Assembly (NCBI RefSeq): GCF_028583425.1
Contig: NC_072793.1
Coordinates: 171,779,681-171,843,680 of the forward strand
Direction of reading: 5' to 3'
Length of the DNA stretch: 64,000 nucleotides
DNA from: Eublepharis macularius
Lineage: Eukaryota > Chordata > Lepidosauria > Squamata > Eublepharidae
Of the stretch, positions 691-47,620 are shown piece by piece. Every line of letters begins with the position of its first letter. Within the stretch, counting starts at the first letter, position 1. Both the position numbers and the translations under genes were made by a program. The notes below the pieces were generated by a model, which had not been told where the DNA came from, did not search any database, and was given only the letters and a program-made list of their open reading frames with translations.

Positions 691-5691
<5,001 letters not shown>

Positions 5692-10368: not shown

Positions 10369-10372
10369 AAAG

Positions 10373-11753
10373 TGTTGCCAAGTAGGCCCCCTCCCCTGCT
10401 TTGAAGCCTGCTATGAACTGTGCTAAAGTTTCCTGCGTTGCTGTTTTACTGCTACACCCAAAGACTGCTGTGCACGTGTGTGTATTCTGATACACGTGTC
10501 AGTTTCCTGCCTGCGTGTCAATTACCCTGCTGCAATAGACTGTGTAGTTTACTGACTCCATGTTTGGTTAACTGCACAAAGGACTCTCTTCCTGGGCAAG
10601 CCCTGCCCTGGCCTGTATCTGGAATTCCCAGTGTGTGTTTGGACTGTGTTCCCCGTGCCTGCTTTGCCATCTGCCACGGACCGTGCCTGTTCCCTGCTTT
10701 GGACTGTGTTTTAAAGTGTTGTTCCCGCTGCCTCCATGGAAGCCTGCCTCATATGGGCCCAAGCCGCTGCTAGCAGCCGGGCGCCTGCCGGGGAAACCTC
10801 CAGCGAGCCTGGCTAGGCGCTCCCTGGTCAGTTCCCGCCTGGAGCCTCCCGCGGGCCGGTCGCCGAGCTTGCCCTCGCTACCGGGCAGCCTGCTATCCAG
10901 CCTTAGCTATGCCCAGCCGGCATCCATGTTCTCAGGCAGCCAGAAGACCCTGGGAAGAAGACTGCTTTGAGAAGCCATTTCGGCGAAGCGGGCACACCAC
11001 GTCCGCAGCGAGAGCCCCTCGCCCCGCTCTGCATATCTTAGGAGCCGCCCCGGAGAAGAACTAAGTGCCGACCATCCCAAGCACTTAGAGAATGCATCTC
11101 AAAGAAACCTCCGCATTCCAGAGCTGATGACATCAGGACAAGCCCTGTCCGCTGGAACATCCTTTCAGCCCACTTGGATTTCCCCCTCCCTCTTTTGTCC
11201 CCTCTTCCTGAGGTGTCACTTATCACAATCTGATTACCAAAGTGGCCCATCCAAGCCATTCAGTAGCCCATTAGACCCTTTGTTTTAATCTGTGAGAACC
11301 ACCAAGTACAGCACCAGCCCCAGGGTACGTTTTGGGGTATTTAAGCTGGTCTCCCAGACCACTCGGTGCCTCGGCCATTCCTATCCAGACTTCCTTGCTG
11401 TCCGTCTGTGGTCCCAGTGCTGGCATTGGGCCACCCTCGCTGCTGCGTCTCTGCTTCGCTCCAGGATAAGTGAGTATTCCCCCTATCATCGTTGGGAACC
11501 AGCTAATGCGAACGTCTCTGTATTTCATACTCTATGTTTCTTAGACCTTGTATGTTCTTGTATGATTGTGCAAGCTAGGCTTACGCTACACTCAATACAC
11601 GTGTTTGGACCTTACTCCTTGTCTGCCTCTTTTTCACTAGAGTGTCTGGGATCGGGACCTCCGTAAACATAGGTTATGATCCTCGCTTAATATTAATAGT
11701 TACAGACTGCTACAGCTAATTCCCCATTATAATAAAGAGCAGTTCTGGTAACA
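10373..11753 (+). repeat. 5' LTR of the endogenous retrovirus
   Basis: It starts TGTTGCC and ends GGTAACA. A TATA-like 'gtatttaagc' at about 11,337 suggests transcription starts near 11,365. AATAAA at about 11,731 lies only some 17 bases before the LTR end, which implies a long R region and almost no U5. A GTGAGT at 11,470-11,475 is a possible splice donor inside R, as used by foamy viruses (inference). Confidence 0.92.
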
Positions 11754-11759
11754 GTTTAC

Positions 11760-11778
11760 TGGTGGAGAATGCGGGCAT
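11760..11778 (+). promoter_or_regulatory. Primer binding site, tRNA-Ala type
   Basis: TGGTGGAGAATGCGGGCAT begins six bases after the 5' LTR. It is the reverse complement of the 3' end (with CCA) of the vertebrate tRNA-Ala(AGC) type ending GCATTCTCCACCA, as I remember that gene. Most retroviruses use Pro, Lys, Trp, His, Leu or Phe tRNAs, so Ala is unusual. Confidence 0.7.
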
Positions 11779-12336
11779 AACCCAGTTCGTGTGAATACAC
11801 GTGAGTCGACACGCGTGTCTTCGGCGAACTGACTTAGAGGAAAATTTTCCAGACCTCAGTGTAAAGAGCGCAATTTAGCTCAGGGAATTAAAAGTGTGAG
11901 TGTGTGTGGCTCTAGCGAGCATTTCTATCTTGTGGGTTGGCTTTTCCCCATTTCCTCCTTCAGCCAGCTTTGGACTACTTGCCTTTTGTGGTGCACCGCG
12001 AGGCCCTCCAGCCGTTATAACCGGTGTACTGTGGGTGAGGACCTCTGAACTGGTGAAGTTCCTGGCCACCTTCCGGGCCGCCTAAACGCGTCTATGTGGG
12101 TGGGATCCCAGAAGTAGGCTCTATAGATTTATATATATCCTGAAGCAGCACATATAAAATTCTTTTCCGCCCTCCCCCGTCTCTCCTAAGTCCGTCCAGA
12201 CCCCGCTCCTGCCAGCACTTAGGCTTCTATCCCCGCTCCGGAGGAAACGTGAAGGGATTGTTAGTCCGTTCGTTTAGTTAGCTTTGGGAATCTAAAGCCA
12301 GGTTCCTGAAGCCCCGCGGCAGCCGGCCGCACCGTG

Positions 12337-12945
12337 CTTGAGAGTTTTAAGTTAGACTCTTGAGCGCTTTTCGCCTGAGAGTTTTAAGGTAGACTCTTGG
12401 GCGCCTTTCCGCTCGCGAGTTTTAAGTCAGACTCGTGAGCACACCTCGCTTGGGAGTCAGTGGGACTCTCGGGCACACTTTTGCTTGGGAGTTGTTTGAA
12501 CTCTTGAGCGCTTTTTCCGCTTGGGAGTACTGTAGTTTTACTCCTGGGCCCTTTCGCTTGGGGACTTGCAGAGGCAGTCCTTGAGCGCATTTAGTCTTTT
12601 GGTCTTGGCTTGGAGACAGTTTAACCGTTTGTCTCTGAGCACGAGGCCTGGGGACACTTTGAGTTTAGTTCTTGGGCAGAGAGCTTGAGAGCATTTGCAG
12701 CTTCTGAGCAGAGGCTTGGAAGCACTTCGGTTCCTGAGTATAGGCTTGGGAGCATTTCTGGTTGCCTGAGCAGAGGCTTGGGAGACCCCCTTAGTAGCAG
12801 TTCCTGAGCAGAGGCTTGGGGACGCTTTTTGGTTTTCCGAGTAGAGGCTTGGGAGACCCCTGAGCTTTGGCTTCTGAGCAGAGGCTTGGGAGCACTGAGC
12901 GTTTTTGGTTCTTGGGCTTAGAGAGCTTGAGAGCACCCTCTGAGC
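12337..12945 (+). repeat. Two degenerate tandem arrays in the retroviral leader
   Basis: The first array (12,337-12,595) has about seven ~37-bp units built on 'gagttttaag...gactcttgagcgctttt'. The second (about 12,600-12,945) has about eight 40-60-bp units built on 'tgagcagaggcttgggag'. Both are imperfect and contain no long coding frame on the plus strand. They lie between the primer binding site and gag, where packaging and translation-control signals usually sit. Their role is unknown. Confidence 0.75.
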
Positions 12946-13255
12946 CAGTAAACTTTTCCTGGTCCCGTGGCTTGTAGGCAAGCTTAAAACGGGAATAGGA
13001 ATTTTCCTTCTCCCCCGGTGGAGAAGAGCCGAGTGTAGAACCCTTAAAAATCCCCTTGTGAACCTAAAAGTAGGACCCTTAAAAATCACCCCTGGTAAAA
13101 ACCCTTGAGGACCTGAGGGAAGGATAAACCTCCCGAAAGGGACATAGAGAGGAAGAAGTTGTTAAAACCCTTGAGCAGCTTTAATCGCCCCACCCCTGGT
13201 GTCGCTGGTCCACTCTTTAACCTCCCCCGAGATCAGCCTTAAACTAAAAAGTAAA

Positions 13256-15241
13256 ATGTACCGGGCAGCCCCCACCGTGCCCCGCCTGGAGAAGTGGCTA
13301 GTTAAGAAGGGAGATTGCCCCTGGGAAGCCGGTTCCTTCAAGGGACCTGACCCGCTCCAAATAGTTAGAAGCGCCTTCCAGGATTTTTGCGAGAAGGAGA
13401 AACCCAGGTCAAGTAAGAAGGATAGGTATGGAGCTTGGGCACTTTTCACCGCCCTACAGGACAGCGTGTCCCTAATTAATAAGCTACAGATAGCTCAGGA
13501 AGAACAGGAACAGGAGATAGAAAAGCTAAGGAGAGAAAAGAAGGAACATGAGGAAAAAGCAGCCGAGTGGCGTTCAGAACGCGTTAACTTCATGCTGGAG
13601 AAGCAGGGACTAGCCGCTGCCCTCCAGGACGCCCAGCACAAGGCTGAAGTAGCCACCGCTCGTGCCGATATGGCTGAGCACGCAGTAATTGAAGGACAAG
13701 AGAAAATTGCAAAATTAACCCATGCTGCCCAGTTCATGGCAGAGCAGAAAGTCGCTAAGATAGCCGCAGCAGACCACTCCGCTTGTAAGAGGGAGCTAGA
13801 GGCCCTAAAACAGCACCTGGGAATGCAGCAGGCCGTAATTTCCGCCGTGCATCCCGCAGCCCTCTTGGCCCTCCCCGAAGGTAGTACCGACAACTGGTCA
13901 CCCCCTTCGCCCCAGCCTGCGGAAGCCCCACAGCCCCTCCATCCGATAGCTACCAAAGAAATAGTCACCACAGACGATGATGGCAGGAAGACAGACCGAA
14001 TAGTTAAGGAGACCCGCAATTGGAGGCCCGATGAGCTCCAAGCCATAGCGGACCGCATGGGACCCCTGAATCGAGACTCAGCTATACAATGGTTTGCACA
14101 CGTGACCATGTCCCAGCCCTCCGCCAGTGGCTCCGATGTAGCTCAGCTGGCTCGCCATTGTGCCAGCCCCGAAATAGTCACCTCCCTCAACGCATATATT
14201 TCTAACCGGAGACTAGCCACTCGCAGTCAGTATGGTGCCATGAAAGAGTTGTGCGCCTTCCTGTGGCCCACCAAGAGTTTAAAAGCCCTGTATATTGCAG
14301 AGTCTCAAAAACCCGGAGAGGATCCAGAGGCATATTTAGCCAGGAAACAGCTCCTAGCCGAACTAGCAGACGAGGTAGATTTAGATTTGAGCGACATGCC
14401 GGACTTCGACGACTTAGAATTCAGGAGGGCAGTCATAGATGGACTCAACAGCACCACTCGCCTAGCCCTAGCAGGAGTCGAGCCCGGGAGCATTACATGG
14501 GGAGAGCTGGAATCCCGCATCAGGAGCATTGCTGGCCTGTTGCGAGAGACCGGCGCCATCCGCCATGTGAAGTCCCCGGCCTCGCGTAGAAAGGAAAGCG
14601 AGCCGATTAGTGCAGTTACCTATGCCAATCATGGCCCCCACTCTCAGTACCGACCACAGGGACGCAGCCCGTATCCGGAGGCAAGGGGAGGAATCCTGAG
14701 GGGAAGGAGCAGTAGCTTTAACCGGGGAAGAGGACCGAGGGACTACCGTCCGGGAGTTTCCTTTGCGCCTACCCCGAGTTACAGTTCCTCCTCCCAGCCG
14801 GGACCCCACGAGCCCCGACTACAGGATGCACCCATAGCCCCTTCTCACTCGCGAGCATCGCACCCGTACCACCATCAGGTCTACCCGCCTCCAGATCAGT
14901 CTAATGCTTGGGGAGCATCGCAGGGCGACCACGAGGGCTACCGGGACCGCGGCAGCACGCCCCAGTCCAGGGACTCCCTCCGTTGGGAACTATGGATGCG
15001 CCTCAAAAACATTGGAGCGAACATGGAGCTCTTCGACGGAAAGCCCACGTCCGTTCTAATGAAGGCGATCATGGAATGGGAAGACCAGCAGCAGCCCCCA
15101 GTACCTCCGTCGGCGCCCCCTTTGCCGCCGGACCCTCCCTTCTCGAGTCCCCCGATAGCTGCGGTTCGGGAACGCCCGAGCCCCAACAACCCCTTTAGAG
15201 GAAGCGCCGCTTCCACCGATCAGGGTGCAGGATCAGAATAG
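13256..15241 (+). CDS. gag: Retroviral gag
   Basis: The open frame starts at the first in-frame ATG (13,256) and gives about 661 residues. Upstream in-frame codons back to 13,199 lack an ATG. Residues about 70-190 are strongly heptad-like and rich in Glu, Lys, Gln and Ala, predicting a long coiled coil. Residues about 330-480 look like a capsid domain and contain a major-homology-like KPGEDPEAYLARKQLL. The C-terminal part has an Arg/Gly-rich segment (around nt 14,650-14,760) and then a Pro-rich tail. I find no CCHC zinc knuckle. Coiled coil plus Gly/Arg-rich nucleic-acid-binding segment without a knuckle recalls foamy-virus Gag. It looks open throughout. Confidence 0.85.
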   Translation: MYRAAPTVPRLEKWLVKKGDCPWEAGSFKGPDPLQIVRSAFQDFCEKEKPRSSKKDRYGAWALFTALQDSVSLINKLQIAQEEQEQEIEKLRREKKEHEEKAAEWRSERVNFMLEKQGLAAALQDAQHKAEVATARADMAEHAVIEGQEKIAKLTHAAQFMAEQKVAKIAAADHSACKRELEALKQHLGMQQAVISAVHPAALLALPEGSTDNWSPPSPQPAEAPQPLHPIATKEIVTTDDDGRKTDRIVKETRNWRPDELQAIADRMGPLNRDSAIQWFAHVTMSQPSASGSDVAQLARHCASPEIVTSLNAYISNRRLATRSQYGAMKELCAFLWPTKSLKALYIAESQKPGEDPEAYLARKQLLAELADEVDLDLSDMPDFDDLEFRRAVIDGLNSTTRLALAGVEPGSITWGELESRIRSIAGLLRETGAIRHVKSPASRRKESEPISAVTYANHGPHSQYRPQGRSPYPEARGGILRGRSSSFNRGRGPRDYRPGVSFAPTPSYSSSSQPGPHEPRLQDAPIAPSHSRASHPYHHQVYPPPDQSNAWGASQGDHEGYRDRGSTPQSRDSLRWELWMRLKNIGANMELFDGKPTSVLMKAIMEWEDQQQPPVPPSAPPLPPDPPFSSPPIAAVRERPSPNNPFRGSAASTDQGAGSE

Positions 15242-18200
15242 GGTTGCCCCGAGTCCCAGTCTCCCTCCGTGGGCATAGTTGCCAAACTAAAGCCGGACAC
15301 ATGGGGGAGACCGACAGTGAAGGCAGGGATCGGGACTCCCGGGGAAAAGAAGAAGCCTGCCACCCTCCTCATAGATACCGGAGCTTCACTTAATATACTC
15401 CGGCCCACCTTAGTCACAAAGGGCACCCAGACCCCCACTACCATGCAGCTCGCCGGTTTTGGGGGCGGCACGCAGGAATCCCCGGTCTGGCAGGATATCC
15501 CCCTCTCCGTTGGGAACCTGGCCACCCGGATTTCGGCGTGCGCAAACCGGGGAGAAGACGATGGAATTTTGGGCATGCCATTTTTCCGTGCCGAGGGACT
15601 GACCATTGACTTAGCGAACGGGCTCCTGTGGCGCATCCCGGGAGGCCCAGACTTTGTTAATGCGGTCCATCGATGCGCAGCCCTCAAGGCCCCCCTTCCT
15701 CTCGCCCCCATCACAGGAGACCCCTGGGCTCAGGACTTTCCCGAAGTGTGGGTGACAGACAAGGCCGAGTGTGGGATAGTGAAGGGCGCCTGCGTCCTGA
15801 TTGAAGGAAAGGACCCCCCTCCCCAAAGACAGTACAAGTACCCAGCAGAAGCTGAGGCAGGGATAGCCAAGACTATAGAAGGACTCCTTGAGTGGGACGT
15901 CATACTCCCGATGCAGTCCATCTGCAACGCCCCATTGTGGCCAGTTCTGAAAGCAGATGGAGTGACCTGGAGAATGACGGTCGACTTCCGTGCCCTGAAT
16001 GCCACCACCCCTCCAGTTGCCCCGGTTGTGGCCAAGTATAATGAGATCCTAACGGCCATTGCCGCTGGGTCCCGGTTCTACTCGGTCATAGACCTGGCCA
16101 ATGCTTTCCACTCCATCCGGTTGCATGAGTCTTGCTGGTACAAGTTCGCGTTCACTTTCCGCGGCCAGCAATACGCATTCAAGCGGACCCCCCAGGGATT
16201 CCACTCCAGCCCCAGCATTTGTCATGCCCATGTAGTTCAGATGTGGGAACGCCTCCAACCCTCCTCGAGGCCCCACGTACTGAGCTACGTGGATGACATT
16301 TTAGTCCACGCCCCCACGGAAGAATTAGCCCGCCAAATCACCAGGGAAGTCCTGGAACTCCTCCGCGAGACTGGGTTCAAGGCTAGCAGGGAAAAGGCCC
16401 AATTGGTTCAGACCAGCGTCAAGTACCTGGGTCTGACCCTGGGACCCGAGGGTCGCACCCCGGACGCCCAGCGAATGGAGGTCATTTCCAAGCTGCCTGC
16501 ACCCACCGATGTCCCCTCCCTCAGAGCCCTTCTAGGAACTTTTAACTTCTCCCGAGACTTCATCGAGTCCTTTGCAGACAAAGCTCGCCCCCTTTATGCT
16601 CTCCTCAAGAAGAACACTCCCTGGGAGTGGGGACCGGAGCAACAGACAGCCTTAGCCGAGCTAAAGCGCAGTCTAGCCGCAGCCCCGGCCCTAGCCCATC
16701 CAGATGTTACCCAGCCCTTCTTTATCCAGTTAGCAGTATCAGACAAGAGCATAGGAGCCACGCTCACCCAGCAGCAAGCAGGAACCGCTAGAGTAGTAGC
16801 CTATGCCTCTCGCAACCTAACTGCAGTAGAAACTAAGTTTAGCCCATGCGAAAAGACATGCCTTGCTCTGGTTTGGAGTCTGACCCATTGGGAATTTATC
16901 ATAGGAGGTTCACGTACAATAGTGCAAACCACTCACACGCCCCTCAAATATATCCTGTCGGGAAAGATACAGGACGGACAAGTTTCAAACGCTCGCATAG
17001 CCCAGTGGACCCTGGCCCTGGTCAACCGCGGAGTAGAATTCAAAAAGGAAACCACTGAGCCACCAGCCCCCTATGGCCTATTGGTAACCGGGACCGAGCA
17101 CGAGTGCCCCCTGGACCCGCCACCACAGGTTGTCTGGCCAGTCACTTGGGGAGTCCCGCTAGAGGAAGCCCGACAGAACGGCTTCACATGCTGGTTCTGT
17201 GACGGCTCCTCCTTTCACGTTGGAGGCTCCCCTCGGACAGGCTACGGCGCCGTGCGAGTGAGCGACGCCCATACCCTCAAAGGTCCAGCCCGTCCCCATT
17301 CCAGCCAAGCGGCTGAGGTGCAAGCGCTTCTGGCGGTGCTTGAGTTTGAGCCCCCAGAAAGCCCACTTGCCATTTACACAGACTCGGATTGGACGGCCAA
17401 AGCCGCCACGGTCTGGCTCCCGGTGTGGCAGAATCAGGGGTGGAGAGCTAGCGATGGGAAGCCCGTAGCCCACCTACAGCTATGGCAGCAAGTAGCAGCA
17501 CTCCTCCAGTCTCGCTCAGGCCCAACGCAGGTGACCCATGTCAAGGGACACCAGAAGACGAACTCAGAGACCGCTTATTGGAATGACCAGGCAGACCTTG
17601 CAGCCAAGGCAGCCGCCACTGAAAGTGCTCCCCCACCGGAACTAGCCACCGATTGTCCCCTCCGCCCTGTCACCACTCGGGCACAAGCCCGCAGCCAAGC
17701 TCAGGGGACCGCAGGAACGCTAGACCTAGCACAACTGCAGCGATCTGACCCAGAAATAACTGACCTCCTAACCGCAGGAAGGGATCAGACAGGAAGACTC
17801 ATGATCAGAGAAGAGGAAGGCATAGTTTGGGCAGTAGATGCAGCCGGCGAACGCCATTGGGTAGTACCATTGGAAGTTAGGGCTGACTTAATTCAGTTTG
17901 TCCACGAGCAGGGACACCGAGGCAAGGATCTGACTCTGGAAAGGGTAAAAGAGGTTGGTTGGTGGCCTGGCATGCGCACCGAAGTAGCGCAATGGGTAGA
18001 CAACTGTCTGTCCTGCGCTATGGTTAATGCAGACCCCACCGGACCTAGAGCTCCCCTCCAGCATCAGAGAATTGATGGACCCTGGGCTCGCATACAGATT
18101 GACTTTATCGGCCCCCTTCCCCCCACTGCTCGCAGCAATCGCTACTGCCTCACTGTCATAGACCCCTTTAGCAAATGGGTCGAAGCGTTTCCGTGCAAGC

Positions 18201-19081
18201 GCAACAATGCAGCCACCACAGCCAAACTACTGTTCAACAATGTCTTTTCAAGATGGGGCATTGTGCGAGTCATGGACTCCGATTTAGGCTCACACTTTAT
18301 CGGAGAAGTTACACAGGAGCTTTGTAAAGCACTAGGCATCCAGCAACGGTTCCACATAGCCGGCCACCCTCAAGCTTCAGGCGCCATAGAAAGAACCAAC
18401 CGGACCCTCAAGGAGGCTCTCCGCAAGATGGTTCGCTCCTCCGGGAGAGACTGGGATGAAAAACTCCCCATAATCCTAATGGCCATTAGAGGCACTACCG
18501 CAGTTCACGGGCTCACACCCCATATGGTAATGACAGGGCGAAGAATGCAACTCCCGGAAGCCTTCTGGCTAGATACGCAGCTCCCTTCCGACATGCAGCC
18601 TGTAGTGATTAATGATGCTTGGGTCCAGGACCTGCTCTCATCCATACACGCCGTCCACATGCAAGTGGCCCAGAAGTTGGGCACAGCTCAGAAGGATATG
18701 GACCGCAAATTGGGATGGGTCAGGAACCCCAGGCAGTGGGAAGAAGGACAGCTCGTTCTGTACAGGAAGTTTTCGCAAAAGGCGCACTCACTAGCAGCCA
18801 AGTGGCAAGGCCCAGTCCCTATCACAAAAAGAGTCTCCCCAGCTGTCTATCAGGTAGCCATCCAGAGAAGGACAGGAGGAACGTGGCTAAAATACTTTCA
18901 TGCCTCTCAGTTAAAAGAATGGAAAGGGAAGCCGCTGCAAACCGCCCCTCCTGTGTACGACCCTGGGGGAACCTCCACCAGTCCAGCCCCCCTCTGCCCA
19001 GTGATTCGCCAGATATCCCTCCACCCTGGGCCAGAGATACCGTGTGTCCCCTTAGACCAGACCTTTGTAGCTTTAGAATAA
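15242..19081 (+). CDS. pol: Retroviral pol (protease, reverse transcriptase, RNase H, integrase)
   Basis: The frame is the same as gag and continues directly after its UAG, the arrangement gammaretroviruses use for read-through. About 1,270 residues are recognisable. In order: aspartic protease LLIDTGASLNIL (about nt 15,370); reverse transcriptase with TPQGFHSSP and SYVDDILVHA (about 16,185 and 16,285); a gamma-like connection region; RNase H with CDGSS, then ALLAVLEFE, then IYTDSDW (about 17,195-17,390); integrase with an HHCC finger (about 17,900-18,020), the DDE residues in QIDFIGPLPP, MDSDLGSHF and GAIERTNR, and a C-terminal KWQGPVPITKR (GPY/F-type) domain. It looks open throughout. Confidence 0.92.
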   Translation, partial: GCPESQSPSVGIVAKLKPDTWGRPTVKAGIGTPGEKKKPATLLIDTGASLNILRPTLVTKGTQTPTTMQLAGFGGGTQESPVWQDIPLSVGNLATRISACANRGEDDGILGMPFFRAEGLTIDLANGLLWRIPGGPDFVNAVHRCAALKAPLPLAPITGDPWAQDFPEVWVTDKAECGIVKGACVLIEGKDPPPQRQYKYPAEAEAGIAKTIEGLLEWDVILPMQSICNAPLWPVLKADGVTWRMTVDFRALNATTPPVAPVVAKYNEILTAIAAGSRFYSVIDLANAFHSIRLHESCWYKFAFTFRGQQYAFKRTPQGFHSSPSICHAHVVQMWERLQPSSRPHVLSYVDDILVHAPTEELARQITREVLELLRETGFKASREKAQLVQTSVKYLGLTLGPEGRTPDAQRMEVISKLPAPTDVPSLRALLGTFNFSRDFIESFADKARPLYALLKKNTPWEWGPEQQTALAELKRSLAAAPALAHPDVTQPFFIQLAVSDKSIGATLTQQQAGTARVVAYASRNLTAVETKFSPCEKTCLALVWSLTHWEFIIGGSRTIVQTTHTPLKYILSGKIQDGQVSNARIAQWTLALVNRGVEFKKETTEPPAPYGLLVTGTEHECPLDPPPQVVWPVTWGVPLEEARQNGFTCWFCDGSSFHVGGSPRTGYGAVRVSDAHTLKGPARPHSSQAAEVQALLAVLEFEPPESPLAIYTDSDWTAKAATVWLPVWQNQGWRASDGKPVAHLQLWQQVAALLQSRSGPTQVTHVKGHQKTNSETAYWNDQADLAAKAAATESAPPPELATDCPLRPVTTRAQARSQAQGTAGTLDLAQLQRSDPEITDLLTAGRDQTGRLMIREEEGIVWAVDAAGERHWVVPLEVRADLIQFVHEQGHRGKDLTLERVKEVGWWPGMRTEVAQWVDNCLSCAMVNADPTGPRAPLQHQRIDGPWARIQIDFIGPLPPTARSNRYCLTVIDPFSKWVEAFPCKRNNAATTAKLLFNNVFSRWGIVRVMDSDLGSHFIGEVTQELCKALGIQQRFHIAGHPQASGAIERTNRTLKEALRKMVRSSGRDWDEKLPIILMAIRGTTAVHGLTPHMVMTGRRMQLPEAFWLDTQLPSDMQPVVINDAWVQDLLSSIHAVHMQVAQKLGTAQKDMDRKLGWVRNPRQWEEGQLVLYRKFSQKAHSLAAKWQGPVPITKRVSPAVYQVAIQRRTGGTWLKYFHASQLKEWKGKPLQTAPPVYDPGGTSTSPAPLCPVIRQISLHPGPEIPCVPLDQTFVALE

Positions 19082-20660
19082 AAGAAATAGTAGAATATGT
19101 AGATATCGGTGTAAATGTTAAAAGTTTTTCCAATTCTATTCTTTGACCTCATTAGGCGGGCCCCACAGTTGGGACCCTTAGGAGAAGACACGGCAATCAA
19201 AGCCAAATAGGACCACCACCGAGAGTGATTCTTAATTGGATCGTAAGCCGCATGTTCGGAAAAAAAATTGCACAGGCAAAAGAGATTTGCTGTGTGTGAA
19301 AGTGGTTGGAGAGGCTTTAGCCCAAAAGTGAATGCGTTTCCAATATTGGAGACACACCAATAAAGGTGATCTCTGTATTTGAAAACATTTCACCCGCCGT
19401 GCTGGTGAAGATCCCGCATCTACGTAGATTCGGGGTCTCACCTGCCAGACCCACGCTTTCGCATGATGGTCGGCTTTGGCTTTGAGGGCCGTGCCTCCCC
19501 TGGAAAAGGATCCCCAAATAGCCCAACATCCCTCTTTTACTAATGTTCATATTCGTCATGGTGAGTTGCTATACGGCGCCACCAGCTAGTACGCTTTAGT
19601 GCAAAAGTAAAAGACCCGCCAGTATTTTATAAATATGTGCCCTCTGGAATGTGTTATTGGGGTGCGTTCGCTACGCACAAGGGGCAGCGTACCTCATTTA
19701 CATAGCCAGAATCCCCTGCGCCAAGATGACCCCCGAACAACCCAGACCCAGTGGCGCCGGCAGATCTCGGCCGCCTCCGCCGCTTTTCGATAAACGCTGC
19801 CGAGCACCTTCGGCTCCACTTCGGCCCTTTCCGCCAGCAGCCGCCCGCCCCACGTAATCTTTTCCCTTGCCCGTACCGCACAAGGGAAAAGAAGGGGGGG
19901 AGACATATTGAAGTTTTAATGAAGCCCTGCCAGGCCTTCCAAGTGAGGGCAACCCAAAAGTACCCCACACCCGTATGCCTCTTGCTCCGTGTATTTTTCT
20001 TTTGGCTCAGTGCATTTTTCTTTTGCTCAGTGTATTTTTCTTTTTGCCCAGTGTACCTTTTTTTTTTGAAACCAGAAGATGGGGCCTCCCGAGGGAGTCC
20101 CCCCCAAAAATTGCTAGTCCTGCAAACATATGACGAAAGCCCATTTTTAGGAAATTAAAGCGAGGGCCCCCGTCTGCAGCAACCCTTATAGTTAAGGGCG
20201 ACCGCTCTTTAGTTTTTTTCGTTTTAAAACGGCAAGGCCAGGCCGAGCCGGACCGACAGCCCTCAGCCCGCAAAATAAAAATAGCCCGTCGCCAAGCAAG
20301 GGGCACCTGGAGGCCACATAGTCCAGGCACCCAGGGACCCCTGGGGCGAGTTTGCATAATCCCGCCTAACGCACAGCCGACCCTTGCCCGACGTAAAGAC
20401 GTCCCCCCTGAAATATACACGCTTTAGAAAGAAACCTTCGCACAGGAGTTCCCCAGAGCAACAAGCTGGAAGGCTCGCTTAGTGCTCCGGGACTTCTCGT
20501 TCGAGCCCCACCTAATAGACAGTGCTGGCAGAAATACGCCCTCCTTTTTCCCCGCTTTACTTCATTTATTTTTGCTGCAATAAACTCAGGGAGCCTGTAC
20601 TTATATCCGCAGGTCTCCCCAGGATATTTTCATCACAAAAAGGAAAAGGAAGGCCAGGAG
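19082..20660 (+). other. Long non-coding pol-env interval of the retrovirus
   Basis: I see no conserved gene in these 1.58 kb. It holds a short array of about three ~23-bp units (19,988-20,056, core 'tgtatttttcttttgctcag'), GC-rich stretches and a pyrimidine-rich stretch before env at about 20,545-20,620 that could serve env splicing (inference). Retroviral pol and env usually abut or overlap, so the length is odd. Remnants of an older insertion cannot be excluded. Confidence 0.5.
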
Positions 20661-23048
20661 ATGAGGCACCTGGCTACTCTGTGTTTGCTCGTGCTGGCAG
20701 GCACCCTAATAGAGGGACGCCCGTCCAAATTAATGCCCTACCCCCACTGGAGATGTATCAATACCCTGGCAGGAAATGAAATGATGGTCTGCAAGGTTGT
20801 GCAGCAGAACAATATGACCACCCCCACGGATCGCACTAACTTCCGCAGCTGTGAAGAGCAGTGGATCCGACCCCCAGAGCTTGTTATTTTATGTGTAGGA
20901 GTCAAAACTCTGTCCCAAGAGCTAGTGTGCTATTCACCTACCGATACAGTTTCACCACTTGCTCCGATTCCTTGTATGTTTCTTCCCCGTATCAGGCCAG
21001 TCCCCACCGCAGTCCCGGTGGTAGACAAATATACCACCCCTGCCAACTTCGAAACCTCGCCATTTGTCACTGAGGCTTTCGGACCATACTGTGAAGTTAT
21101 TTTAGTGTCGGCCGCAGTATGGAAGGCAGGAGACCCCTTTAGAATGACCATCCTACTAGGCACCACTACCACTGAATCTGCATCAGTCACTATCACGCCC
21201 CCTTCAGGTGCAGTTCTCTCCCTTGCTATAGAACGCTGGGAGAACCTGACCTGGATTGTAAAAGAGGAAGACCTAGCCAAACATGGCCCACCCGATTGGA
21301 TTCTGGTTCAACAGACGCCCGAATGCCAAACCAAGCCCCTAGTAGAGAAATTTCACCGGCTTGGGCTGCTCTTTGTAAATTTGACTCACGAACCAGGCAA
21401 TTATTCCCTGCTGATCCGGACCCAGGAGACCCACACCATCCAAATTGACCCTTTGATTGCTAGCAATGAACAATTAAGCCAAGGCGGCACGCATATAGTG
21501 GGCTCCCATGTTTTGAAAACTGACATTCGAGAGAGAGTTCTAGTCCGCCCGCAAATGTCTTTAAAAGAGATCCGCATAGACTTAGCTGAGCTAAATGTAA
21601 CCCAGAGGCTGCCGCAGTGCGCTCCCTATCTGGAGGCCGGTAGCAAGGGTTGGAATGCATGGCTACAACTGTGGATCGATCCCTCCCCCTCTCTCTCGCG
21701 TGCCAGACGAAGCATTGCCGACTGGATTGCTCCTGCAGCCGGAGGCTTAGCAATCATGGATTCGGTCAACATTGAGACTCTCGCTAATAAGTTTGCCCAT
21801 GTTACGACTAGCATCTCTGACTTAGGTAAACCGGTGGTGCAGTCCCTAAATTCCATTTCAAATGGGCAACACGAGATCAGCTCCATTTTAGTTAACTGGG
21901 AGAGTCAAATTGAAAGAGATTTTTCTCTGCTGCTCAAAGGGACACAGTCTTTGGAACGCAACATGTCAATAGCCATGGCATGTATGCAAGCCCAACAATT
22001 AAATCAGGCTGTGGCCATGGGGCTAATTCGGCAAGCCATGGACGGGCACTTGCCCCTGGAAATTAAAAGATTGATTATGCCCAAATTGTCACCCATAGAA
22101 CTGGAGCTTGAATCCTGGTGGTCTCTTGTAAATTCCTCATTCTCACCGACCACCCAGGAGCTTAAATTATTTTTATTAACGGCCAGTACGCACGAGTCAT
22201 TCCATGTGTATCCAGTCGTGCCTCTGGGACTCCAAGTCAGCGACACCGAGGTCCTCTACGCCCGCCACCCCGACCATTGGGCCCGCTTCACCCCGACCGG
22301 ATGGCAGCTCGTCAGCCTCCAAGGGTGCCAGCATCGAGACCAGACTGGCTTCATTTGCCAAGACCAAGCCTTTGCACCGCATCACCCCTGTGTAGCCCCG
22401 CAAGTCGACGCCCTCAACGAATGCTCTTTCGAGGTCGCCCGGGAGAACAGCTCCGCTGTCGTCTACCTTGGGAAAGGATGTGCCTGCGTGCGAACGGCCT
22501 GCGACTTTGTGATCCTGAACTCGTTCCAGCTCAAGCCCGTGATCCCGGGAGTCAATCGCTGCTTTTGCAACCTGTCTTCGGTGGCAGCCTGCGACTTCAC
22601 CTACACGGTACCGGTCTGGACCCAAGAAGAGATCCTGGTGGCACCCTCCATCTATCGCTATGTGAAGCCTGTCTCCCTTGGCATCGGTCTGGAGCTAATC
22701 CACGAGCTCCTGGCCCACCCGCAGCTCCACCGCACCCTCCAGAGCATCCAGAGGGACGGGGACACTACTGCTTTGGTTGTGTCCCACAACGGAAAGGAGA
22801 TTTTGGATCTGGTCCAGCGGATTAAGACCACCGGCGAGCACTCGTGGTGGGAGACCCTCTTTGGTTGGAGCCCCACTGCCACTGGAATTTACAATTTGGC
22901 TTTGCACCCGATCGTTGTGATTTTGGCCTTTCAAGTTTTATTATGTGCCTCATTACTTTATTTGGGCTGTTGGAGCCGCCGACAGCTCCAGCAACTCCAA
23001 CTATCCTACCGTCTGGATCATTACAATCCAGACCTCCTCTTGCCCTAA
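20661..23048 (+). CDS. env: Retroviral env
   Basis: The protein is 795 residues starting at ATG 20,661. Residues 1-19 form a signal peptide (MRHLATLCLLVLAGTL). A furin-type RARR site at about residues 347-350 separates surface and transmembrane subunits and is followed by a hydrophobic fusion-peptide-like SIADWIAPAAGGLAIM. A helical heptad region follows, then a long Cys-rich ectodomain, a membrane anchor at about 757-779 and a short tail. Several N-glycosylation sequons are present. I do not find the CX6CC and immunosuppressive motifs of gamma-type Env, and the ectodomain after the first helix is much longer than in that type. It looks open throughout. The Env family is unrecognised. Confidence 0.85.
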   Translation: MRHLATLCLLVLAGTLIEGRPSKLMPYPHWRCINTLAGNEMMVCKVVQQNNMTTPTDRTNFRSCEEQWIRPPELVILCVGVKTLSQELVCYSPTDTVSPLAPIPCMFLPRIRPVPTAVPVVDKYTTPANFETSPFVTEAFGPYCEVILVSAAVWKAGDPFRMTILLGTTTTESASVTITPPSGAVLSLAIERWENLTWIVKEEDLAKHGPPDWILVQQTPECQTKPLVEKFHRLGLLFVNLTHEPGNYSLLIRTQETHTIQIDPLIASNEQLSQGGTHIVGSHVLKTDIRERVLVRPQMSLKEIRIDLAELNVTQRLPQCAPYLEAGSKGWNAWLQLWIDPSPSLSRARRSIADWIAPAAGGLAIMDSVNIETLANKFAHVTTSISDLGKPVVQSLNSISNGQHEISSILVNWESQIERDFSLLLKGTQSLERNMSIAMACMQAQQLNQAVAMGLIRQAMDGHLPLEIKRLIMPKLSPIELELESWWSLVNSSFSPTTQELKLFLLTASTHESFHVYPVVPLGLQVSDTEVLYARHPDHWARFTPTGWQLVSLQGCQHRDQTGFICQDQAFAPHHPCVAPQVDALNECSFEVARENSSAVVYLGKGCACVRTACDFVILNSFQLKPVIPGVNRCFCNLSSVAACDFTYTVPVWTQEEILVAPSIYRYVKPVSLGIGLELIHELLAHPQLHRTLQSIQRDGDTTALVVSHNGKEILDLVQRIKTTGEHSWWETLFGWSPTATGIYNLALHPIVVILAFQVLLCASLLYLGCWSRRQLQQLQLSYRLDHYNPDLLLP

Positions 23049-24447
23049 TGGTTATTCTTGGCGCCCTCCTTTAACCCTTGTTTGTTTTATTGCTTGTGCC
23101 GGTATGAACTATGATTATGTTTATTATGTGTATGAACCCTGCACCGGCCCCATGGACGCTCTGCTGCCGGACGCCGCTCCGAGGCCCTCTTGTGGACTAG
23201 GGGGGGACATATCTCTCTGCCTCCCAGCCCACGGCCCTTCTCCAAACGACCGCCAGCAACGCCACCGCCATGAGGACTAGAACTGTGTGCCTGAAGCCCT
23301 TCTCGCCGCCTGCCGACCCTGCTCTGCGGATTGACGCAGACAGCAAGGGGGGGTGGAAGTGTGTTTTGGAACACATGGACTAAGTTTGCCTGTTTCTGTA
23401 AATATGCAACCCAGTCTAGCAGCTGTACTGCGGACTGAGCCGTCTGTGATCTTTGCTGCTCTATTGTTTTATGAATTTTCTTTTTATGAATTTTAACTCC
23501 CATGAATTTAGCCCCGAACTAGTCCCTCTCTCTATCTATTGCAAGTGCGCCCATGAACTTTATCCCTATGAATTTGATTTTAACCCTAGGAATTGCCTTT
23601 TTAACCCGACTCCCTCCGCCGAGGTAATTCTAGCATATCCATTATTTTATGAATTTGGTTTTAACCGGGACCCCTCCGGAACGGTCTCTTTTAAAGGTTA
23701 TTTTATTTCTGATTTTAAGCTCGATGAATTTGGTTTTAATCTGACTATATGAGTTGGTCTTTTAATTGCAGAGTTTATTTTTCTGACCCCCTATGAGCCC
23801 TTCCGCCGCTCACCCCTCATGAATTGTTTCCACGCACTTGCTTTTACTCTTGCTGCTTTTATTGGTTTTAACCTCCCGAATCATTGCTTTTAATCCTATG
23901 TATTTATGTATTTATGGTTTTAATTATCTATGAATTGTTCAACCCTTGATGAATTGATCTATGCCTTGCTTGCACACTTCACTTTTATCCTCTATGAATT
24001 GCTTTTACTCTTACATTCATGAATTGTACCCATGAATTGTCTTTGCCTTTAATCCTATGCTTACGAATTATGAATTGCCCCTGGTTTTAGTGTATCAATC
24101 CACCATGAATTACGGACCTCCAGTTATGAATTGATCTATGTACGCAAAATATGAATTATTTCTGCTTGTATACATGAATTGCTATTACCTATGAATTATT
24201 ACTATTTATTCTGACGGTTGCACTTAGCACACCCCCTGGTGTGAACCCAGAGACCTGCAGCCCATTGGCTGATCTAAATTGCACTTATTCGGTTAGGTGG
24301 TTCTCCAAACTAAATTTTTGAGTGACGCCTCCTCCCCCTCCCCTTCCCACTCCTTCTTCGCTCGAAGCTCGACCACCGGACATTGCCGACCACCTCGCCT
24401 TTGAAGTCAAGTTCGGAGACCCGCGCGCCTGACGTCCCGGGGTCTCC
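23049..24447 (+). repeat. Env-to-3' LTR interval with an ATGAATT-rich array
   Basis: These 1.4 kb carry no supported gene. From about 23,466 to 24,197 the heptamer ATGAATT occurs 18 times, all on the plus strand, at irregular spacing, often as 'ctatgaattg' and often with 'ggttttaa' nearby. Chance would give well under one copy in that length. The region is otherwise AT-rich. A 99-residue frame (23,453-23,752) merely translates the repeat into EFxFN-like units. Role unknown: decayed minisatellite, protein-binding array or RNA element. Confidence 0.85.
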
Positions 24448-24459
24448 GAGGGGGGGAAT
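24448..24459 (+). promoter_or_regulatory. Polypurine tract of the retrovirus
   Basis: A purine run 'gagggggggaa' directly precedes the 3' LTR (24,460). This is the expected position and composition of the plus-strand primer. Confidence 0.85.
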
Positions 24460-25840
24460 TGTTGCCAAGTAGGCCCCCTCCCCTGCTTTGAAGCCTGCTA
24501 TGAACTGTGCTAAAGTTTCCTGCGTTGCTGTTTTACTGCTACACCCAAAGACTGCTGTGCACGTGTGTGTATTCTGATACACGTGTCAGTTTCCTGCCTG
24601 CGTGTCAATTACCCTGCTGCAATAGACTGTGTAGTTTACTGACTCCATGTTTGGTTAACTGCACAAAGGACTCTCTTCCTGGGCAAGCCCTGCCCTGGCC
24701 TGTATCTGGAATTCCCAGTGTGTGTTTGGACTGTGTTCCCCGTGCCTGCTTTGCCATCTGCCACGGACCGTGCCTGTTCCCTGCTTTGGACTGTGTTTTA
24801 AAGTGTTGTTCCCGCTGCCTCCATGGAAGCCTGCCTCATATGGGCCCAAGCCGCTGCTAGCAGCCGGGCGCCTGCCGGGGAAACCTCCAGCGAGCCTGGC
24901 TAGGCGCTCCCTGGTCAGTTCCCGCCTGGAGCCTCCCGCGGGCCGGTCGCCGAGCTTGCCCTCGCTACCGGGCAGCCTGCTATCCAGCCTTAGCTATGCC
25001 CAGCCGGCATCCATGTTCTCAGGCAGCCAGAAGACCCTGGGAAGAAGACTGCTTTGAGAAGCCATTTCGGCGAAGCGGGCACACCACGTCCGCAGCGAGA
25101 GCCCCTCGCCCCGCTCTGCATATCTTAGGAGCCGCCCCGGAGAAGAACTAAGTGCCGACCATCCCAAGCACTTAGAGAATGCATCTCAAAGAAACCTCCG
25201 CATTCCAGAGCTGATGACATCAGGACAAGCCCTGTCCGCTGGAACATCCTTTCAGCCCACTTGGATTTCCCCCTCCCTCTTTTGTCCCCTCTTCCTGAGG
25301 TGTCACTTATCACAATCTGATTACCAAAGTGGCCCATCCAAGCCATTCAGTAGCCCATTAGACCCTTTGTTTTAATCTGTGAGAACCACCAAGTACAGCA
25401 CCAGCCCCAGGGTACGTTTTGGGGTATTTAAGCTGGTCTCCCAGACCACTCGGTGCCTCGGCCATTCCTATCCAGACTTCCTTGCTGTCCGTCTGTGGTC
25501 CCAGTGCTGGCATTGGGCCACCCTCGCTGCTGCGTCTCTGCTTCGCTCCAGGATAAGTGAGTATTCCCCCTATCATCGTTGGGAACCAGCTAATGCGAAC
25601 GTCTCTGTATTTCATACTCTATGTTTCTTAGACCTTGTATGTTCTTGTATGATTGTGCAAGCTAGGCTTACGCTACACTCAATACACGTGTTTGGACCTT
25701 ACTCCTTGTCTGCCTCTTTTTCACTAGAGTGTCTGGGATCGGGACCTCCGTAAACATAGGTTATGATCCTCGCTTAATATTAATAGTTACAGACTGCTAC
25801 AGCTAATTCCCCATTATAATAAAGAGCAGTTCTGGTAACA
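24460..25840 (+). repeat. 3' LTR of the endogenous retrovirus
   Basis: It is the same length as the 5' LTR, every open frame in it matches at a constant offset of 14,087, and I found no substitution on reading both. This points to a very recent insertion, unless the assembly forced the two copies to agree. Confidence 0.92.
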
Positions 25841-25844
25841 AAAG

Positions 25845-26992: not shown

Positions 26993-29900
26993 CTATGCTC
27001 TCTTCCCTTTGTGAATTCTTTGATGGGATTTAAGGTTTCCAATCTGCCTGAAGCTGTTTCCACACTCTGGGCATTTATAGGGTTTCTCCCCTTTGTGAAT
27101 TCTTTGATGGACAGTAAGGTTTCCACTCTGCCTGAATCTTTTCCCACACTCCAGACATTTATATGGTTTTTCCTCTGTGTGAATTCTTTGATGAACAGTA
27201 AGATCTCCACTCTGCCTGAATCTTTTCCCACAATCCAGACATTTATATGGTTTCTCCTCTGTGTGAACTCTTTGATGGATAGTAAGTTTTCCACTTTCCC
27301 TGAAGGCTTTTTCACACAGCAGGCACTTATATGGTTTCTCTCCTGTGTGAACTCTTTGGTGGACAGTAAGTTTTCCACTTTCCTTGAAGCTTTTTCCACA
27401 CTGCAGGCACTTATATGGTTTCTCCCCTGTATGAATTCTTTGATGAACAGTAAGATCTCTACTTTGCCGGAATCTTTTCCCACACTCCAGACATTTATAT
27501 GGTTTTTCTGTGTGAATTTGTTGATGGACAGCAAGTTTTCCACTTTCCTTGAAGCTTTTTCCACACTGTAGGCACTTATATGGTTTCTCCTCTGTGTGAG
27601 TTCTTTGATGGGACTTCAGTTTTCGACACTCACCAAAACTTTTTCCACACTTAAGACATTCATATGGCTTCTCCCCTGTGTGAATTCTTTGATGGACAGG
27701 AAGAGCTCCACTGTTACTGAAACTTTTTCCACACTCTGGGCATTTATATGGTTTCTCCCCTGTATGAATTCTTTGATGGACAGTAAGATCTCCACTCTGT
27801 CTGAATCTTTTCCCACACTCTAGACATTTATATGGTTTCTCCCCTGTGTGAATTCTTTGATGGACAGTACGTTTTCCACTTTCTTTGAAGCTTTTTCCAC
27901 AATGCAGGCATTTATATGGTTTCTCCCCTGTGTGAACTCTTTGATGAACAGTAAGTTCTCCACTCTGCCTGAATCTTTTCCCACACTCCAGACATTTATA
28001 CGGTTTCTCCCCTGAGTGAATTCTTTGATGGGAAATTAGGCTTCCACTGCGACTGAACATTTTCCCACACTCCCCACAATTATATATTTTCTTCCTGTTA
28101 TAGGTGCTCTGTTGAATAGTAATACCTGATTTTTCAGGAACATTTTCCTCTCTAAAAGTGTGCTCTTTCCTATTATCTTTGCACATTTGTTTTTGCTGAG
28201 AATTGTTATCCTGTAAGTGACTAGAATTATTACTTTTATTGGGTGGGGTTTCCCCCTCTTCCTCTCTCTGTTCATCATGTTCAACATAGTCCTTCAAATG
28301 GGGAAATGTATCCTCTTCCGCCATCAAGGGATGCTCTTTTGTTTCATTTGCCATCTCCCACACTCCTCCTGAAAGAAAGAGAAGGGCACACTTTAAGAGA
28401 GGGACAATGTTTCATGTTTCAATATACACGGGAGTGGGTCTGGACAAAGGTGACTTGCCTGAAGGTAATCTAATGTGAACAAGAAACTTGAAATATTCAG
28501 TTATTTCTGTCTGCCTCTTCAGCGTCACAGGGTGGGTTTTAGATCTAGGGAAAGAGGCATATATTTTCTTCATTTTGATTTTTAATCTGCTCAGAAGTCT
28601 GGTGGGTGGCCCACCCATATCAGCAATACTAGGCCCAAGTTTGGAGGGCAACACAGCCTGACGGGTGCCCTTCTAGCACTGGGACCTTTGGATATGCCCT
28701 AGCGCCTCCTAGTGGATGGATTCCCTGAGTTGTCTGATTCTGTTACCAAGAACTTAGTTGCTAGCTAACAAGAGTACAGTTCTAATTCTAGCCTCATTCG
28801 GTTAACAGAAAGTAAACCTGAATTGTGAAAGAGAAAGAGGGCAAACACTGGGGGAGAGTTTGATTCCTTGTTGTGGTCTAGTACCCAGGGAGAGAAAGTA
28901 CTTGGGCTTTGTCATGTAAGCAATGGAGAAATCTTCAGCATTTTCTGTCCTGGGACTTGCGGGGAGGAGGCACTCTGGCTTTAAGGAGGAAAAGCAGCCT
29001 TCTCAGGGCAGCCATGCTTTGAGAAAGGAGTCAGAATTGGTAGAAAAATGAGAAGGGGATGCATAAGGAACGAGGGGGGGGGGTCCCGCCTTTCAAAAGG
29101 AGAGGACAAGTCTTGGCAGAAGCGATCTGATGGGGTAGAAGGTAGTTTCCACTTTCATATGTTCAAAATCGACAGATAAGCATTTCAGGATCTGCATATT
29201 ATCTCATCTCTTTAGAGGAGAAGCAACTGTGAGGATAAACAGTGTCACAGAAATAAACCCACCTTTGGAAGGAGCAGCAGCCCCCACACTGTCCCATGAT
29301 AGACCACAGCTGCTGCCTGCCAATCCCTCCTCTTCATCAGAGGTCAGGGGAAGCAGCTCTTCCTCCTCTTCCAACAAGCATACCAGGTCAGGTTTGGCAA
29401 TTTGTGGAGCTTTTAATCATGGGGTGGGGGCAAAAAACGAAAAGAGAACTATGATTCTTCTGATGTATGTCAGTGCAGCAATTCCAACCCAGGTTATCCC
29501 TCCAGAATACACGGCAGGAAAGCAACAGGGTGGGGTGGAGTACAGTACGGGGTAAAGAATTGTCCATATGGCACTGGAAGTTCTGTGCCTTCTTCTTGCC
29601 CAACTGAGAGGGAAAGGAAGCTGAGAAGTAAAGTTGCAGAGAAGCCTCCACAGCAGCATCTCAGCCCAGGGAAGGGAAGGCCCAGACTGGAGGGAAGCCT
29701 CTGCTTTGACCCTCCCACCTTCTCCAGGCCAAGCATCCTTTGGCACCTCCTCTCATCTGTCCAGTGACAGGACTGCCAGGCAGGGGCTCCCTCACTGCAA
29801 GGAGAGTCCAGAACCCCTCCTACAACAGGCCCAGGCCCATGAAGGGTGGCAGAGATGAGCCACGGGGCCTAAGGCATTCTTCATTCCTTACAGCCACTCC

Positions 29901-36854: not shown

Positions 36855-38470
36855 TTAATCACTGAACCATAAGAAGCATAGGTAGTTGCGGTGACCATCT
36901 CTGACGAGGAAGGAATAGAACATCTGCTGGATGTCCGCCATGATGGCTACGGCTTCCTTCCTAAAGCGGATGAGTACACCAAGTAGGCTGTTGGTCAGGT
37001 CCGGTCTAGTTAGGAGGGCTTTGTTCAACAAGAATCCTTGAAATTGGGCACTGGAATCAAAGACCACTCTGATCTGGCCGGGCTTTTGGGGATGGTATAC
37101 CCCGAAGAATGGCAGGTACCAGCATTCCTCTCCCTCTCGCAGTGGAGGTGCAAGTTCTGCATGCTTATTTTGCAGCATCTTGTCCATAAATTCCACAAAG
37201 TGGGCCTTCATCTCAGGCTTCCTTGCCAGGGTTCTGTGCAAGGTGTTGAGTCGAGATAGGGCTTGTTCACAGTTGTTGGGCAATCGCTGTCTAGGTGTGT
37301 GGAAAGAGAGTGGAGCAATCCAACTTCCAGAGTCGTCTTGCTGAAGTTCCTTTTCCATTAGTTGTAGGAATTGCTTGTCTTCCATAGATGGGGCGAGCAT
37401 GTTATCATCTTTGGTTTTTCGGAACACTGTAGTTCCAAGGCCATAGTCCTCTTCCGTTAGTGTGAAGTGTTCTGGACATGGCTTCAAGTGTGAGGCTCGT
37501 CCGTTATCCATAATGGTTGTGGCGAAGACGCTCATCTGGTTTGGCATCTGTAAGCGATCTACACACATGTTCCCCACTATGACCCATCCTAGGTCATACC
37601 TCTGGGCATGTGGGGTGCCAGGAGGTCTAACAATCACCTTGTGGCAAACTAGCATATCGGTAGCATCTATCCCTAGCAGAAGCAAGATCTGTGCATCTGG
37701 ATCCAGGGCAGGAAGGTGATCTGCAATTGATTGTAGGTGAGGATGATGGAGCACTATGTCTGGTGTTGGAATCTGGTCGCGATCATCTGGTATGGCATCA
37801 CATTCCAACAGTGGAGGTAGAGAGAACTGGATACTGCCATCGAGAGATTCAATTTGGAACCCGGCGGCTCTCCTCCCCGCCGTGCGCTGGACCCCAGCAC
37901 ACGTTTTGAGGGTGTATGGCAGTTCATCCCCTGATATGTTGAAGAGCTCAAAGAATATTGGGTCAACCAGGGACCGGGTACTGTGGCTATCTAGGATGAC
38001 GTACATCTTGATGGCCTGTTCAGGTTGGCCAGCAGGAAAGACTTTGTCGAGACATATCTGATGGCAGGACCGGTTGTTGCTCCCAACACCGCACACTTGA
38101 TTGCAGTGGGCCAAAACAGTCTTCTCCCCTTGGGAGGCAGGGTCGTCAGGCACAACTGGCTGTGTTGGCGTGGCATCCGTGTGCATGGCAGTCAAATGTG
38201 TGTCACTGCTGCACTCGTAGCACTTGATGTCAGCCTTGCAAAAGGTCGATGCAATGGGTGTAACTGGATTCCAGTCTGGAAGAGCAAGAGCCAGAGGAGT
38301 GAGCTGAGGCTCTGTAGATGCGACTGGGATGCCAGGAGCCAGTGGCTGAGGTGCTGCTGGTGAGGCTGGAGTGGCAGGAACCGGTGGAGTACCCAGGGGC
38401 TCTGCAGGTGGAGCCGAAATCCAGATAGCTGAGGAAGGCACAGGATGAGTCAACTCTTCTGGTTTGAGTT
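36855..38470 (-). pseudogene. BEL/Pao gag end, protease and reverse transcriptase start (fossil)
   Basis: About 540 residues. A Pro/Ala-rich start is followed by a Cys/His cluster (KCYECSSDTHLTAMH), a protease-like VILDSHSTRSLV, and a reverse-transcriptase start with IRVVFDSSAQF and ADIQQMFYSF. The rest of the transcriptase and RNase H lies in pieces at 35,090-36,800. Part of the same broken element. Confidence 0.8.

Positions 38471-40422: not shown

Positions 40423-47620
<7,198 letters not shown>

Follow-up and report, generated by a model that had tools for sequence, protein, structure and literature searches.

The provirus and its parts

The window analyzed here is a 64,000-bp stretch of the genome of the leopard gecko, Eublepharis macularius (C4:171779681–171843680 of the 2.2367-Gb host assembly), and it contains an endogenous retrovirus (ERV) that is whole and 15,468 bp long (window positions 10373–25840). 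The paired long terminal repeats (LTRs), target site duplication (TSD), primer site, polypurine tract and gag-pro-pol-env gene order make it a complete Retroviridae provirus. A preliminary description of this DNA had reported a whole element with open gag, pol and env, a TSD of AAAG, a polypurine tract and a primer site, all of which were found, as well as LTRs without visible difference; direct comparison of the two LTRs, which begin with TG and end with CA, gives 0 differences over 1,381 bp. The main point is not visible from the window alone and is a family-wide expansion: this is very probably a recently integrated, complete member of a large-genome retrovirus lineage that entered the gecko germline many hundreds of times. 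Its parts are as follows, in window coordinates.

10369–10372, no strand: left copy of the TSD, AAAG (30 of the 33 other complete copies likewise have a 4-bp TSD)
10373–11753, forward strand: 5′ LTR, 1,381 bp, with TATTTAAG at 11338 and AATAAA at 11731
11754–11759, forward strand: spacer GTTTAC from the LTR end to the primer site, invariant in all 35 copies read there (that of the window and 34 others)
11760–11778, forward strand: tRNA-Ala-like primer binding site, beginning 6 nt past the LTR
12339–12894, forward strand: minisatellite-like repeats with 30–70 nt units, inside a 1.5-kb leader
13256–15241, forward strand: gag (open frame 13199–15241; first in-frame ATG at 13256)
15239–15241, forward strand: in-frame TAG (next base G) between gag and pol
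15242–19081, forward strand: pro-pol, in the frame of gag past one TAG
19082–20660, forward strand: 1.58-kb gap between pol and env with no recognized gene
20661–23048, forward strand: env, 795 amino acids
23049–24459, forward strand: noncoding 3′ region of 1.4 kb (1.41 kb), with a hairpin and the polypurine tract at its end
about 24415–24447: hairpin with a predicted 8-bp stem
24448–24459, forward strand: polypurine tract
24460–25840, forward strand: 3′ LTR, the same as the 5′ LTR in sequence
25841–25844, no strand: right copy of the TSD
39228–40774, forward strand: paralogous host segment without a provirus (empty site)

The gag, pro-pol and env frames are all open, and much of the 15,468 bp consists of the three long noncoding stretches (the leader, the pol-env gap and the region after env). 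Ten open reading frames from these stretches, the margins and the LTR matched 0 Pfam families, and a captured gene in the leader, the gap or the 3′ region was rejected on this ground. That the 15.5-kb length stems from a nested insertion is not favored: among 40 LTR matches listed, 13 pairs lie 13.97–14.31 kb apart (the 14,087 bp of the window copy included), with a few other spacings of 11.4, 19.4 or 25.5 kb. A search of the window for RNA families gave 0 at gathering cut-offs.

Gag, Pol and Env proteins

The names gag and env rest on position and features and not on homology. Neither protein has a Pfam match, and no Gag homolog was found at E ≤ 0.001 among the 7,996 candidates scored. The Gag protein contains a motif like the major homology region (MHR; QKPGEDPEAYLAR), a PSAP motif and GR/RG dipeptides, and a CCHC zinc knuckle (CX2CX4HX4C) is absent from its frame. 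The Pfam matches to Pol are a protease-like domain, reverse transcriptase (RT), RNase H and integrase, and the protease DTG, RT YVDD and integrase HHCC and DX35E motifs are present. After the integrase, GPV replaces GPY/F in an otherwise GPY/F-like setting (an SH3_Tf2-1 match here is weak and below cut-off), and neither a dUTPase nor MLVIN_C is among the Pfam matches to pol. The best Protein Data Bank (PDB) chains for the RT are those of p80 RT/RNase H (254 bits), which we take to be of the murine leukemia virus (MLV)/XMRV type, followed by Gag-Pol chain 8wus (211), Ty3 (210) and Pr125Pol 7o24 (203), the last presumably from a foamy virus, with HIV-2 (60) far behind. Env has a signal-like N-terminus, an RARR cleavage-like site, nine N-glycosylation motifs and a long transmembrane (TM) part from which CX6CC is absent; a profile search against the PDB gave 0 matches, and its predicted structure (mean pLDDT 29.6) is uninformative. 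The TAG between gag and pol is likely to be read through; the fold 3′ of the gag stop is not convincing as a readthrough signal (z-score –1.5, with 21 of 200 shuffles as good).

Primer site, LTR ends and polypurine tract

All 19 of 19 nt of the window primer site match what we take to be the 3′ end of tRNA-Ala, an identification made by the 3′ end alone. The exact 21-nt tRNA-Ala 3′ end first assumed occurs at 0 places in the host genome, and a looser form is found at 26 places, 3 of them without mismatch. The tRNA-like 3′ ends of this form in the host genome have CCCGC or CCCAC and match the primer site over 15 nt (18 with the added CCA). Among the primer sites of 35 copies, 31 have the C form (some with another change), two the T form and two an extra AT. 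The primer sites thus vary at the same base as the genomic tRNA-like ends, as would be expected of a site copied from its primer. With the LTR ending 6 nt short of the primer site, U5 would lose 6 nt and U3 would lose 3 (AAT), which is unusual, as retroviruses usually lose 2 nt at their ends. All 35 copies read have an identical polypurine tract, and the hairpin that abuts it is predicted in 34 of 35 (33 of 34 besides that of the window).

Copies across the host genome

The host assembly contains 885 LTR-primer site junctions (≤2 mismatches of 28), 3,471 LTR starts (≤3 mismatches of 30), and 741 RT and 1,019 env motifs (each with ≤1 mismatch, third bases free); reversed-pattern controls for these four counts all gave 0. 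A singleton provirus is thus rejected, as the host genome carries many hundreds of closely related copies. If each junction marks a provirus with two LTRs, about 1,700 LTR starts would be left for solo LTRs, copies with an altered primer site and relatives. Stop-free frames make up 33 of 36 for pol and 56 of 57 for env among the best-scored copies, taken from 21,729 (pol) and 1,550 (env) first-look candidates.

A dense cluster at C1:3.2–8.0 Mb accounts for 23 of the first 100 listed LTR-primer site junctions, and tandem proviruses there share LTRs. Copy spacing is identical at 3.27–3.38 Mb and 4.10–4.20 Mb of C1, and the repeated pattern includes two tandem arrays, each with three LTR starts at 14.2-kb intervals.

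Age of insertions and divergence between copies

The 35 other copies that are best in pol were used for dating, with both LTR regions read; 33 gave complete LTR pairs (of the other two, one had a partial 3′ LTR and one had its 5′ LTR outside the stretch). Twelve of these pairs have 0 substitutions (one of them with one gap) and 20 have one to four (two with one gap). With the window copy included and the single outlier pair described below excluded, the mean difference within a pair is 0.072% (33 substitutions in 45,859 sites). The substitution rate is about 1e-9 per site per year but is uncertain (range 2.2e-9 to 0.5e-9), and at this uncertain rate the mean insertion age would be 0.36 million years (0.16–0.72 million years).

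By contrast with the LTRs within one copy, those of different copies differ by a mean of 4.10% (55 LTR rows from 54 distinct copies, one being in both samples), 57 times the within-copy difference, and the median difference to the nearest neighbor is 2.02%.

Selection on env

Between copies, env differs by 0.12–0.13 at synonymous and 0.009–0.014 at nonsynonymous sites. The ratio of nonsynonymous to synonymous differences (pN/pS) is 0.071 in ten copies drawn from the best-scored ones and the window copy, a sample biased to conserved proteins, and purifying selection is seen alike in the surface (SU) and TM parts of Env. Copies chosen by position on C1 give similar values: pN/pS is 0.112 for the window copy and the four gapless ones of eight env pieces, and 0.077–0.111 for three partial env frames compared with that of the window. 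These four gapless pieces are open, and another is cut by the end of the stretch with its remainder open. A divergence between copies that far exceeds that within copies, together with the low env pN/pS, indicates that the copies had diverged prior to insertion, in a period when Env was important; the divergence pattern does not give the time of last germline entry.

A shortened class that keeps env

Some listed LTR pairs lie about 11.4 kb apart, not 14.1, and two short copies (L117 and L118) retain env and the 3′ region, so the missing part is upstream. A survey of C1 covered 73 listed junctions up to 117.4 Mb and accepted only motif matches without mismatch. The env motif lies 10.7–11.5 kb from 39 of these junctions, with the RT motif in 34 of the 39, and 8.26–8.97 kb from 11 others, with the RT motif in 0 of the 11. 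Fourteen more have the env motif elsewhere (seven with RT), and nine have none within 20 kb (three with RT). One extra copy, with env at 9.4 kb and an RT motif, counts as short only under a wider band and is outside the 11. An absent motif may be a changed one, as in five of the 39 full-spaced copies, but the 11 look like a shortened class that has lost about 2.7 kb including RT and has kept env; they are probably internal deletions that would need help to spread.

Insertion site and host surroundings

An empty paralogous site had been placed at about 39,268, and the host flanks, minus one TSD copy, do align unbroken across the junction to the segment at 39228–40774 (1,256 of 1,589 positions, 79%). 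This segment is a paralog within a zinc-finger gene cluster and not the allelic site, so the alignment demonstrates a clean insertion and not a polymorphism. CpG observed/expected is 0.53–0.77 in the proviral parts versus 0.24–0.25 in the flanks, and the provirus is thus at the level expected of young DNA. The earlier proposal of a recent insertion is upheld by the LTRs with 0 differences, the intact frames, the preserved CpG and the clean empty paralog.

Four C2H2 zinc-finger arrays, all on the reverse strand and with 13–20 matched fingers each, lie at 1648–3612, 26993–28363, 40423–42462 and 58821–60518; they are alike in DNA and form the gene cluster that received the provirus. A reverse-strand frame at 34159–35208 matches DUF5641 and, weakly and below cut-off, an integrase core, presumably as in BEL/Pao retrotransposons, and a 540-amino acid reverse-strand frame at 36855–38477 has no Pfam match.

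Interpretation

The best reading of these observations is that there were many recent germline insertions of lineages that had diverged while replicating with a functional Env. The LTR would drive transcription, first-strand synthesis would be primed at the tRNA-Ala-like site, Gag-Pol would be made by readthrough of the single TAG and Env from a spliced message, and integration generates the 4-bp duplications seen at the copies. Lineages would have diverged with Env under purifying selection, and different members of the resulting diverse population would then have inserted recently.

Several points weigh against this reading. The dating sample was drawn by similarity in pol and hence under-represents old copies, and LTRs chosen by position differ from one another by up to 9.3% (5′ side only). 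Of the 33 LTR pairs, one shows 26 substitutions and 4 gaps, and three more have one gap. The C1 3–8 Mb cluster is partly segmental duplication, and its copies are therefore not all separate insertions. The eight position-chosen env pieces include one with a duplication-like insertion of about 240 bp, one with an 8-bp deletion and one locus with no env at all. Finally, the low pN/pS may reflect older, exogenous evolution.

Intracellular spread in the manner of a retrotransposon, of which IAP and MusD are examples, with Env mainly a passenger, is an unlikely alternative that has two observations in its favor: the copy number is very high, and the apparently RT-less copies (11 of 73 on C1) suggest mobilization in trans. 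Purifying selection on both SU and TM, which extends to the position-chosen env copies and partial frames, argues against it, as does the excess of env over RT motifs at the same tolerance (1,019 versus 741), although the RT motif may simply vary more. The constraint on Env points to spread by infection or reinfection that was not purely intracellular, and the overall pattern agrees better with a replicating viral population that entered the germline again and again than with copying inside cells; the RT-less class could have been carried by full-length helpers.

That the family is instead old, with LTR pairs homogenized by gene conversion, seems improbable. Conversion or mosaicism may occur, since the pair with 26 substitutions (C3:31903606/31889519; L041/L042), which perhaps arose in one of these ways, has a matching TSD. 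However, the members of 32 of the 33 pairs nearly match while the copies that carry them are 0.9–4.1% from the window copy, a difference that general conversion between copies would have erased; in addition, the window copy shows little CpG depletion, and almost all of the best-scored frames are free of stops. We give very little credence to a copy number made up mostly of segmental duplication or assembly artifact, for although two parts of C1 have the same copy spacing and tandem arrays, 4-bp TSDs flank 30 of the 33 complete copies, on many contigs and with nearly all of their sequences different, and the nearest-neighbor LTR difference has a median of 2%.

Beyond recent insertion of lineages shaped by a functional Env, a wider proposal is possible but tentative: a lineage of about genus rank with its own Gag and Env types, midway through a very large endogenization in the leopard gecko, present in some 900 or more copies of which many might be complete and insertionally polymorphic, fed by a still-circulating infectious source, with an RT-less satellite that keeps env and spread in trans, and an invariant 6-nt gap from LTR end to primer site that would reflect unusual trimming of U5 by integrase.

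The endogenization of retroviruses is usually reconstructed from old wrecks, and here there are hundreds of closely related copies, a good many of which are young with open frames. What makes the family important is how many copies it has, how young they are and how constrained. In one widely kept reptile it is possible to read when the insertions took place and how selection acted on the genes, along with probable solo LTRs and deletion satellites; two independent leopard gecko assemblies are published, the second being GCA_050574515.1 (PMC12774848), and with so many young open copies the insertion rate, the dependence on Env and the emergence of virus parasites thus become directly countable.

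Relatives and comparison with known systems

The pol protein is 79% and 71% identical to two contig proteins (P0004 and P0005), 64% to P0006, which is a Pelodiscus sinensis ERV named “Gypsy retrotransposon integrase-like protein 1” in UniRef, and 36% to the next protein. In a tree of 25 pol proteins, for which the program gave a long-branch warning and in which the deep order is not settled, these three and the window pol form one clade with 100/100 support. The neighbor of this clade is a bird group (four of its seven members are named as birds; 92/97) on a long branch, and three further groups are set apart: one in which three of four proteins have PF18697 (which we take to be MLVIN_C), a dUTPase-bearing pair, and a pair that includes a Xenopus protein. 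The likeness to P0004, P0005 and P0006 consists of the pol clade and 64–79% identity, these relatives being known from proteins alone. The sole Env homolog found, P0044, is 56% identical, and it and P0004 each come from a contig of 8,143 bp. No relatives were confirmed in IMG/VR. The gecko family brings lizards into a lineage related to a softshell turtle ERV; this distribution points either to transfer across orders or to shared ancestry of long standing.

The earlier label of a young ERV of unassigned family holds as to youth, but “unassigned” was too strong in view of the pol identities of 64% to the Pelodiscus ERV and 71–79% to P0004 and P0005, and ERV4 is a candidate class. ERV4 was defined by pol phylogeny in crocodilians and turtles, Pelodiscus included, and its typical features in the passages of that paper used here are a 5-bp TSD and no zinc finger, GPF/Y or dUTPase (Chong et al. 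2014; PMC4299795). The gecko provirus resembles it in a Gag without zinc finger, the lack of a dUTPase and a retained env, and differs in its 4-bp TSD (in the window and 30 of 33 copies), while agreement in GPF/Y is doubtful, given GPV in a GPY/F-like setting; the same passages state that TSD length is not consistent within ERV classes and that ERV4 was not detected in Anolis and Python (PMC4299795). For CrocERV29, a crocodile group, a captured gene is described there in the pol-env interval (PMC4299795), which in the gecko provirus is the 1.58-kb gap. The lineage is allied to the turtle ERV and possibly belongs to ERV4, with which it was compared by description only; ERV4 of turtles and crocodiles is likely its named relative, although the 5-bp TSD does not agree.

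With gamma- and epsilonretroviruses (class I, ERV1), the gecko provirus shares the 4-bp TSD and a pol that continues the gag frame past a stop codon; it differs in having no Gag zinc knuckle, no MLVIN_C, GPV in place of GPY/F and no CX6CC. ERV-L/ERV3 (class III) elements have a dUTPase downstream of the integrase, although some lineages are without it; none is found here, and the two dUTPase-bearing proteins fall in a separate clade from the window pol. Spumaviruses have a separate pol frame and no MHR, according to the criteria in the part of PMC8278194 used here, whereas the gecko provirus has a shared frame and an MHR-like motif. That source describes XtERV-S of Xenopus tropicalis as an 8,012-bp element with 705-bp LTRs, a tRNA-Ser primer, a dUTPase and CX6CC in TM (PMC8278194). 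Like the gecko provirus, it is intact, with identical LTRs, no zinc knuckle, an MHR, an in-frame stop between gag and pol, and an SU unlike known ones (PMC8278194); the gecko provirus differs in its 15,468-bp length, 1,381-bp LTRs and tRNA-Ala-like primer, and no dUTPase or CX6CC was found in it.

No description of this family was found in literature titles and the starts of abstracts, which is weak evidence of novelty. The passages of the leopard gecko draft genome paper used here put LTR elements at 3.18% and contain no LTR family names (PMC5080775). ERVs with identical LTRs across vertebrates have been described as intact, very recent and mostly outside recognized genera (PMC10435555, as represented by its main text, where the word “gecko” does not occur); the gecko provirus is an example of the same phenomenon, for which the criteria given there include insertional polymorphism. 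The unusual mixture of features noted in the preliminary description is borne out, with an MHR-like motif and no zinc knuckle in Gag, no CX6CC in Env, a stop between gag and pol, a tRNA-Ala-like primer and a 4-bp TSD, and the provirus in sum belongs to a known kind of retrovirus and is unusual in the parts that it combines.

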